Positions 59,466 through 61,264 of a DNA stretch of 64,000 bases are shown in pieces. Position 1 is the first letter of the stretch; every line of letters begins with the position of its first letter. This stretch comes from Cyclobacteriaceae bacterium (GTDB lineage: Bacteria; Bacteroidota; Bacteroidia; Cytophagales; Cyclobacteriaceae), in the NCBI GenBank assembly GCA_016787565.1, contig JAEUUG010000013.1:248001-312000 (forward strand). The letters are read 5' to 3'. A program made the translations under genes and the position numbers. The notes beneath the pieces are model-generated. The model had not been told where the DNA came from. It did not search any database and worked only from the letters and a program-made list of their open reading frames with translations.

Positions 59466-60057
59466 GAAATTTTTCCATTGTTGCCGAGTTTTCACCAGAG
59501 ATACCCTCCGCTTTGAAAACCTTTATGACGGTTAAAAGTAAGATTTTAATATCAATCCAAAAGCCGATGTGATCGGCATACCAAACATCGAAAGCAAATT
59601 TTTGTTGCCAGGAAATAGCATTCCGTCCGTTAACCTGGGCCCAGCCGGTGATGCCCGGCTTCACATCATGCCTGCGTTTTTGATCTGCATTGTAGAGGGG
59701 AAGGTACTCCATCAGCAAGGGTCGTGGCCCGACAAAGGACATATCTCCTTTCAGTACATTCAAGAGTTGTGGCAACTCATCGATGGATGTTTTTCGAATG
59801 AATTTACCGATGGCAGTGAGGCGTTGAGCGTCAGGTAACAGGCTTCCCTGCTCATCTTTTTCATCGGTCATGGTTTTGAACTTGATAACCGTAAAGGCTT
59901 CTCCGTTTAAACCGGGTCGCGGCTGCAAAAACCAAATCTTCCCGTTGTTGGCAACTGCTAATGCCACGGCTGCCAGCAGTATGAAGGGTGAGGCTACCAA
60001 CAACACGACAATAGCAGTAATGAAATCAAAAGCGGGTTTGATCAGACCTCTATACAT
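59455..60057 (-). CDS. PglC-like initiating sugar phosphotransferase
   Basis: A 200-residue monotopic phosphoglycosyl transferase. An N-terminal re-entrant membrane helix (FDFITAIVVLLVASPFILLAA) is followed by PRPGLNGEAFTVIKFKTM, the catalytic Asp-Glu pair in TSIDELPQLLNVLKGDMSFVGPRP, and GITGWAQVNGRNAISW. It would transfer a phosphosugar to undecaprenyl phosphate to start glycan assembly. ATG 60057 replaces an upstream GTG/ATG-type start, which would read into the repeat array. The length is that of PglC rather than the larger WcaJ type. It is followed by two acetyltransferase genes. Confidence 0.9.
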   Translation of the reverse strand: MYRGLIKPAFDFITAIVVLLVASPFILLAAVALAVANNGKIWFLQPRPGLNGEAFTVIKFKTMTDEKDEQGSLLPDAQRLTAIGKFIRKTSIDELPQLLNVLKGDMSFVGPRPLLMEYLPLYNADQKRRHDVKPGITGWAQVNGRNAISWQQKFAFDVWYADHIGFWIDIKILLLTVIKVFKAEGISGENSATMEKFRGN

Positions 60058-60080
60058 GTTGGCAAAATACAGGAAATTTT

Positions 60081-61264
60081 CGTCATGCAGGAAATAGGTG
60101 AGGCCAGTGCATGGCGTGACGAAGCCAATTCGCAATCGAGGAATCATATTAGGATTGCTTCGTCATTCCTAACCATAATTCAGCCCTTCAGTCCTCGCAA
60201 TAACGGTTTATTTTATACCGTCATGGCGAGGAACAAGCGAAGGCAAGTGCACAGCGTGACGAAGCCATCTGGTAATGGAAGAACAATTCTTTTCATTGGG
60301 ATTGCTTCGTCATTCCTAATCATATCCAAGCCCCTCATTCCTCGCAATGACGGTTTACTTTATACCGTCATGGCGAGGAACAAGCGAAGGCAAGTGCATA
60401 GCGTGACGAAGCCATCTCGTAACCGAAAGAAAAATTCTTTTCAAGGGGATTGCTTCGTCATTCCTAACCATATCCAAGCCCTTCATTTCTCGCAATGACG
60501 GTTTACTTTATAACGTCATGGCGAGGAACAAGCGAAAGGCAAGTGCACAGCGTGACGAAGCCATCTGGTAATGGAAGAACAATTCTTTTCATTGGGATTG
60601 CTTCGTCAGCCAACTCAACATCCCTCACTTCCTTCCTCGCAATGACGGATTTACTATCTTCGGGAATGGCAAAAGGAGGATGTATTTATATGATGGCAAA
60701 TAATCGAAATACCACGATTTACACTGGGGTAACTTCTGATTTATACAGCCGTGTTGTTGAACATCGTGAAAAGAAGTACGACAATAGCTTTACTGCCAGA
60801 TACAACTTAACAAAGTTGGTGTATTACGAGACCTTCCACTCTATTGAGGAAGCCATTGACCGTGAGAAGCAAATCAAAGGAGGATCACGGGCAGACAAAG
60901 AAAAACTTATCAGAACGATAAATCCACATTGGAAAGATCTCTTTGATGAGATTAGTCGTTGGTAAGTTGGTAATGATACTCTGGTTATGGTGAGGAACAA
61001 TTCTGCTCAAGGGGATTGCTTCGTCATTCCTAACCATAACCCAACCCTTCATTTCTCGCAATGACGTAATAAACCGTCATGGCGAGGAACACGAGAAAGG
61101 CAAGTGCACAGCGTGACGAAGCCATCTCGTAACCGAAAGAAAAATTCTTTTCATTGGGATTGTTTCGTCATTCCTTCTCACAATCCATTTTTTCACTCCT
61201 CGCAATGACGTATACGCTTCGTCATTCCTTACTCCTATCCTCCCTTTATTCCTCGCAATGAACG
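60081..61264. repeat. Array of palindromic ~147-bp repeats
   Basis: Units start at 60081 (diverged), 60219, 60366, 60514 and 61075, each opening with CGTCATGGCGAGGAAC (the first is altered) and closing with CTCGCAATGACG. Each unit is a long imperfect dyad: CGTCATGGCGAG pairs with CTCGCAATGACG, and TGACGAAGCCATC pairs with GGATTGCTTCGTCA. The centre is a variable AT-rich loop. Two further half units (about 60985-61066 and 61211-61264) contain only the right arm. The array fills the gap between the GT4 and PglC-like genes and encloses the GIY-YIG gene. Confidence 0.92.
60666..60965 (+). CDS. Small GIY-YIG nuclease-family protein
   Basis: 99 residues forming a single GIY-YIG domain. The sequence MAKGGCIYMMANNRNTTIYTGVTSDLYSRVVEHREKK gives the paired tyrosines and catalytic Arg region, and ETFHSIEEAIDREKQIKGGSR gives the Glu. 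It is of the UPF0213/YhbQ-like short type. The only plus-strand gene in this minus-strand cluster, it is embedded in the palindromic array: one repeat unit ends 17 bp before it and a half unit begins about 20 bp after. Longer in-frame starts read into repeats and are rejected. This type is often multicopy in Bacteroidota; a role in spreading the repeats is speculation. Confidence 0.85.
   Translation: MAKGGCIYMMANNRNTTIYTGVTSDLYSRVVEHREKKYDNSFTARYNLTKLVYYETFHSIEEAIDREKQIKGGSRADKEKLIRTINPHWKDLFDEISRW

Follow-up and report, generated by a model that had tools for sequence, protein, structure and literature searches.

We found that a 99-residue GIY-YIG protein is encoded inside an array of CGTC-tagged hairpin repeats in the analysed window (64,000 nucleotides, C18:248001-312000 of a draft genome of 4.06 Mb and 18 contigs), that this association of gene and repeat is present in several phyla, and that residues 72-74 of the protein covary with the letters of the hairpin stem. 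From these sequence comparisons we propose, with a probability of roughly three in four, that the locus is a REP-nuclease pair in which the GIY-YIG protein recognises CGTC REP hairpins through the loop of residues 72-74. The protein is best read as a single-strand nuclease that is specific for hairpins and matched to the CGTC REPs, which it probably cuts. The features of the locus, in positions of the window, are the following:

60081..61264, no strand assigned: whole block, extra between the sugar-transferase and glycosyltransferase genes, which are adjacent in two relatives
60081..60213, no strand assigned: degenerate repeat unit at the left array edge, 75% identical to the consensus unit; repeat families D2, D3
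60219..60271, + strand: CGTC REP hairpin, stem ATGGC/GCCAT
60298..60352, - strand: CGTC REP hairpin, stem ATTGC/GCAAT, tail-to-tail with 60219..60271
60366..60418, + strand: CGTC REP hairpin, stem ATGGC
60446..60500, - strand: CGTC REP hairpin, stem ATTGC
60514..60567, + strand: CGTC REP hairpin, stem ATGGC
60594..60647, - strand: CGTC REP hairpin, stem ATTGC, closest to the GIY-YIG gene on its upstream side
60666..60965, + strand: GIY-YIG gene, 99 aa (MAKGGCIYMM...EISRW), ATG at 60666, TAA at 60965, PF01541
61012..61066, - strand: CGTC REP hairpin, stem ATTGC, closest to the GIY-YIG gene on its downstream side, no + strand partner
61075..61128, + strand: CGTC REP hairpin, stem ATGGC
61156..61210, - strand: CGTC REP hairpin, stem ATTGC/ACAAT, one mismatch
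61211..61264, no strand assigned: truncated REP at the right array edge, directly after the glycosyltransferase stop codon
61265-62461, - strand: glycosyltransferase gene

The array holds nine clear hairpins and degenerate ends. Its unit of about 147 bp consists of two CGTC-tagged hairpins placed tail to tail, with the CGTC tags outermost. In each hairpin the CGTC is followed by a stem of 5 bp, the loop, the complement of the stem and a C. The + strand hairpin of the unit reads CGTC-ATGGC-GAGGAA...GACGAA-GCCAT-CTG and the - strand hairpin CGTC-ATTGC-GAGGAA...GACGAA-GCAAT-CCC. An earlier note on this DNA had placed the gene inside hairpin-forming repeats of about 147 bp, and the anatomy bears this out: the repeats start 144-148 bp apart (147-148 bp 5' of the gene, 144 bp 3' of it), and single units folded as DNA gave z scores of -4.0 to -4.6, with 0 or 1 of 200 dinucleotide shuffles folding equally well. 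It was likewise right that the gene, on the + strand, opposes its neighbours, which are all on the - strand, and that it sits in the place of a left arm, since it is flanked on both sides by - strand hairpins where a + strand hairpin is expected. The claim that the unit after the gene keeps only its right arm stands as a description of the layout, but the "right arm" downstream forms a complete hairpin of its own. Outside the array the repeat is rare, with only about five degenerate copies elsewhere in the genome; the matches at C6:366853, C14:522596, C6:295645 and C18:322428 are isolated half-motifs without the remaining hairpin and were dismissed as chance. The start of the sugar-transferase open reading frame (60147) runs into the array (window 60057-60147), and alignment to relatives suggests a true start near M31 (~60057).

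Strong hairpins located between genes could also be RNA terminators or stability elements for the neighbouring operons, with the GIY-YIG gene there by chance. We hold this to be the most improbable of the readings considered here: no Rfam family was found above threshold in the array, and tandem dimers whose stems covary with a protein loop would be left unexplained. The whole block is an extra segment between the sugar-transferase and glycosyltransferase genes. In two relatives these genes lie 1 bp and ~110 bp apart, with no repeats between them; as these relatives belong to different genera, the comparison makes the block lineage-specific without demonstrating an exact empty site. With the gene nested in its own repeat cluster, as in Bacteroidota, and the block extra, the locus looks element-like.

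The protein matched PF01541 alone (55 bits, cut-off 22.6) and carries the GIY and YIG motifs and the catalytic Arg, Glu and Asn of the GIY-YIG superfamily. The catalytic set is intact, Y8, Y19, G21, R29, H33, E67 and N86 being shared by all of 18 diverse homologues. The closest named homologue, 73% identical, comes from a Cyclobacteriaceae MAG. The AlphaFold model is a plain GIY-YIG domain (pLDDT 95), in which residues 72-74 form the loop joining helix 60-71, which bears E67, to helix 75-85; here the putative specificity motif is K71-G72-G73-S74-R75. The best fold matches were Slx1 (VIA Z 7.6, rmsd 3.1, 96 residues; a Z below 8 can mean merely a common arrangement), which cuts branched DNA and has a partner protein, the UPF0213 protein 1zg2, UvrC and I-TevI. 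A sequence match to 1zg2 (E 9e-7) agrees with the fold match, and the UPF0213/YhbQ-like GIY-YIG proteins (1zg2, 1ywl) and Slx1, of the same fold, are the best matches by sequence and fold. A search of PADLOC-DB for known anti-phage defence matched 0 families at E up to 1.

The linkage between gene and repeat was examined in 234 distinct homologue loci, gathered from whole-genome searches of the family and the phylum plus a named genome scan, in which Pedobacter and Algoriphagus strains were among the carriers. For 70 family homologues, the 8-mers most enriched de novo within 400 bp of the gene relative to 1100-1500 bp away, with no motif assumed, contain CGTCATT, and AATGACGG occurred at 34 loci near the gene and at 5 far from it. 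CGTC ranked first of the 256 tetranucleotide tags before a 5-bp hairpin and was found at 170 of the 234 loci, with 732 CGTC-tagged hairpins within 500 bp of homologues versus 100 at 1000-1500 bp. Loci seemingly without CGTCATT often show the same architecture with other stems (CGTC-ATCCT, CGTC-ACTCT, CGTC-ATCGC); the hairpin consensus is CGTC-A(T/C)NN(C/T)-GA...loop...-complement-C(T/C), and Pseudomonadota loci bear CGTCATTCCCGCGAAGGCGGGAATCCA. Some homologues, for example L076, L087 and L095, have no CGTC hairpins nearby.

Across genomes, the number of repeats also correlates with the presence of the gene, a test that the earlier note had proposed. Among 118 family genomes (homologues being the fetched loci, and copy counts including the arrays beside the gene), CGTCATTGCGAGG was present in 15 of the 17 with a glycine-73 homologue versus 20 of the 101 others. 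Among 299 Pseudomonadota genomes, at least 10 copies of CGTCATTCCCGCG were found in 13/70 with a strong homologue and in 10/229 without. The same counts partly bring about what the note had named as evidence against its idea, abundant repeats in genomes lacking the gene: 10 of the 23 repeat-rich Pseudomonadota genomes have no strong homologue, and one Bacteroidota genome has 12 repeat copies and no homologue match. Gene and repeats are thus linked, but repeats can persist where the gene is absent, and a strict model in which copy number requires the gene is ruled out, the association being a statistical one. Repeats without the gene can come about through gene loss, missing contigs or another route. 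Several homologues (L039, L066, L070, L119, L127) have one in-frame stop, some of them within arrays that still look intact, which suggests that the gene often decays while the repeats stay. Moreover, many gene-repeat loci of draft assemblies lie at contig ends (G018:C92, C102; G094:C12, C16; L031, L048, L051), so gene counts from drafts are probably too low, including for cases of repeats without the gene such as G094.

The stem letters of the hairpins differ between repeats yet stay paired. Every CGTCAYNNYGA near a gene was taken, pairing not being required. Of these 526 motifs, 434 were followed within 75 nt by the complement of their own stem, whereas the complement of another stem from the pool followed in a mean of 36 and a maximum of 51 (200 draws). 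At the same time, the stem letters follow the protein. In a column scan of 115 loci, each with two or more hairpins of a single stem type, stem base 4 was tied most closely to residue 73 out of all 99 columns, with 0.87 bits over shuffle (z 41); columns 74 and 72 ranked after it, and no protein column was nearly so well tied to any other stem base. Glycine at position 73 goes with G at stem base 4, whereas C, T or A at that base goes with an aromatic residue. Residue 73 and stem base 4 were concordant in 56/59 and in 52/56. The motif K-(G/A)-G-(S/N)-R accompanies GC at stem bases 4-5 (54/55); for K-(G/N)-aromatic-x-R these bases are mostly CT, and for K-K-aromatic-(K/N)-R they are mostly CC.

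Kinship can mimic covariation of this kind, and four further checks were therefore made. Across 18 independent pairs differing in stem base 4, 15-16 agreed with the rule, 0 opposed it and 2-3 were unchanged, column 73 again ranking first; the tree behind these pairs was built without columns 69-78, and its branch support was mostly poor, one pair being left on starred branches. Paralogues of the same genome had 67 hairpins of their own type versus 1 of the paralogue's type, and the glycine/aromatic pairs among them were concordant in 6/6. Pseudomonadota loci sampled after the rule was set fitted it in 28 of 30 typed cases, with only one glycine-73 protein among them. Finally, protein pairs less than 50% identical had stem bases 4-5 in common in 82% of cases if residues 72-74 were the same and in 20% if they differed. 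The inference of the earlier note that the protein acts on the repeats gains strong support from the covariation of loop 72-74 with the stem together with the multi-phylum association. The gene might instead be a small selfish element that persists in neutral repeat arrays without recognising them, and in keeping with this gene and repeats are found apart in some genomes and the other GIY-YIG genes of this genome adjoin tRNA genes instead. A bystander, however, predicts neither a match of residues 72-74 to stem bases nor paralogue-specific stem letters within one genome, and we consider it unlikely.

The other GIY-YIG matches of this genome are located by tRNA genes or at contig ends; none adjoins repeat copies and no CGTC hairpins were found at their loci, and action of these genes on the array was ruled out on that ground. 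Small GIY-YIG genes at L001, L002/L006, L004 and L007 directly adjoin tRNA genes (Leu, Pro, Pro and Met), as if they were small elements inserting at tRNA genes. At L001 the gene (1376-1758; C11 ~246.9-247.3 kb) lies between tRNA-Leu and a perfect 25-bp copy of the tRNA end, and at L002/L006 a 186-bp segment is duplicated. At L005 (C18:1-200) and L007 (C6:1-80) the contigs break within apparently one GIY-YIG gene near tRNA-Met, and as the ends of C18 and C6 overlap in sequence, the two contigs probably join there.

The layout had reminded the earlier note of REPIN/RAYT systems (REPtrons), and as a likeness in the way of working this holds: in both, a matching repeat flanks a nuclease-type gene of single copy, its inverted dimers are scattered, and the hairpins are tagged with a tetranucleotide. 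It does not extend to the enzyme, which is not a RAYT. RAYTs are HUH tyrosine transposases with a GTAG tag, whereas the window protein matches PF01541 only, with no HUH Y1_Tnp domain, and its flanking REPs are tagged with CGTC; the two enzymes are non-homologous. RAYTs are described as acting on single-stranded GTAG REPs (PMC3733652). The genome does contain four Y1_Tnp (RAYT-like) genes, one of which could mobilise the repeats while the GIY-YIG gene is incidental, but none of the four loci (0/4) has a CGTC hairpin, and RAYTs are linked to GTAG-tagged rather than CGTC-tagged REPs in the 2013 survey (PMC3733652). We therefore rejected a RAYT as mobiliser of the array, a very unlikely reading.

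That survey described CGTC-tagged REPs as lacking a dedicated transposase and named no associated enzyme (Di Nocera et al. 2013, PMC3733652). They include the neisserial dRS3 and the rickettsial RPE-4/RPE-6, were reported in Bacteroidetes too, and are defined by CGTC at one hairpin end, a stem starting with AT and an unpaired tail (PMC3733652). The window hairpins share the terminal CGTC, the AT-starting stem, a short unpaired tail starting with CC or CT, and the occurrence in dimers and clusters. The named families CGTC-1 to 4 have an 8-9 bp stem and a 4-5 nt loop, and CGTC REP dimers are usually head-to-head (PMC3733652), whereas in the window the outer stem is 5 bp long, the loop is long and partly paired, and the units are tail-to-tail dimers that combine two stem types and are arrayed in tandem. 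With such stems and loops the window repeats are CGTC-REP-like, outside the four named families. The Pseudomonadota repeat CGTCATTCCCGCGAAGGCGGGAATCCA, on the other hand, fits CGTC-1 with its 8-bp stem, 4-nt loop and CCA tail.

The closest studied relative of the window protein we take to be the Neisseria Ssn nuclease, reportedly a site-specific single-strand GIY-YIG nuclease tied to a repeated sequence, which it is said to bind, and to modulate transformation. Thousands of Ssn homologues reportedly exist, each with its own target sequences, and the group is said to be defined by a cognate genomic repeat near the gene; a cognate repeated sequence is indeed present near the window-type gene. 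Both are small single-domain GIY-YIG proteins linked, on the Ssn side reportedly, to a genome-wide repeated sequence, and by this analogy the window enzyme may work like Ssn and belong to the Ssn family. We know of no code from residues 72-74 to the stem in the Ssn work. Two things may be new here, the three-residue code and, across Bacteroidota, the link of GIY-YIG enzymes to CGTC REPs; we did not see either described in the literature examined, a scope outside which the Ssn work lies.

We hypothesise that the protein would bind the CGTC REP hairpin as single-stranded DNA, with loop 72-74 (K-x-x-x-R) beside the catalytic helix reading stem bases or pairs 4-5. The hairpin covariation points to action on a single strand, as do the precedents of RAYT on single-stranded GTAG REPs and, as reported, of Ssn. 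The single-stranded state could be offered by replication forks or incoming DNA, and by analogy the strand may be cut at or near the CGTC tag while the repeat is in that state. Cut and repair at REPs could then let arrays expand and REP dimers move, with the gene kept inside; alternatively, the enzyme might use REPs as marks that limit or shape DNA exchange. GIY-YIG nucleases are hydrolytic, with to our knowledge no strand-joining or transfer step, and as a hydrolytic nuclease cannot join strands alone, we do not claim a RAYT-like transposition of the repeats by the protein itself. It is possible, though we hold this view only tentatively, that the enzyme acts on REPs purely as a host function, cutting incoming or exposed single strands with no spreading, while the REPs multiply by recombination and replication slippage. 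The reported binding and modulation of transformation by Ssn, the lack of any strand transfer known to us in hydrolytic GIY-YIG enzymes and the persistence of repeats in genomes without the gene are compatible with this, but the gene nested in its own cluster in Bacteroidota and the extra block between genes adjacent in relatives are element-like and argue against it.

Recognition of CGTC REP hairpins through loop 72-74 could be part of something wider, a view for and against which we find the balance about even: such GIY-YIG proteins would be dedicated partners of CGTC REPs across bacteria, a non-homologous counterpart of RAYT and GTAG, with a three-residue loop that specifies the stem, a specificity that has often switched (stem base 4 changes 18 times on one tree) and several independent pairs coexisting per genome. 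For CGTC REPs, which were catalogued in 2013 without an enzyme, the linkage together with the residue-to-base covariation points to a candidate. If the code is true, these proteins of about 100 residues would make up a family of nucleases that act on single strands, read hairpins and have a specificity predictable from sequence, and the repeats of each genome would be a natural target library of its nuclease.
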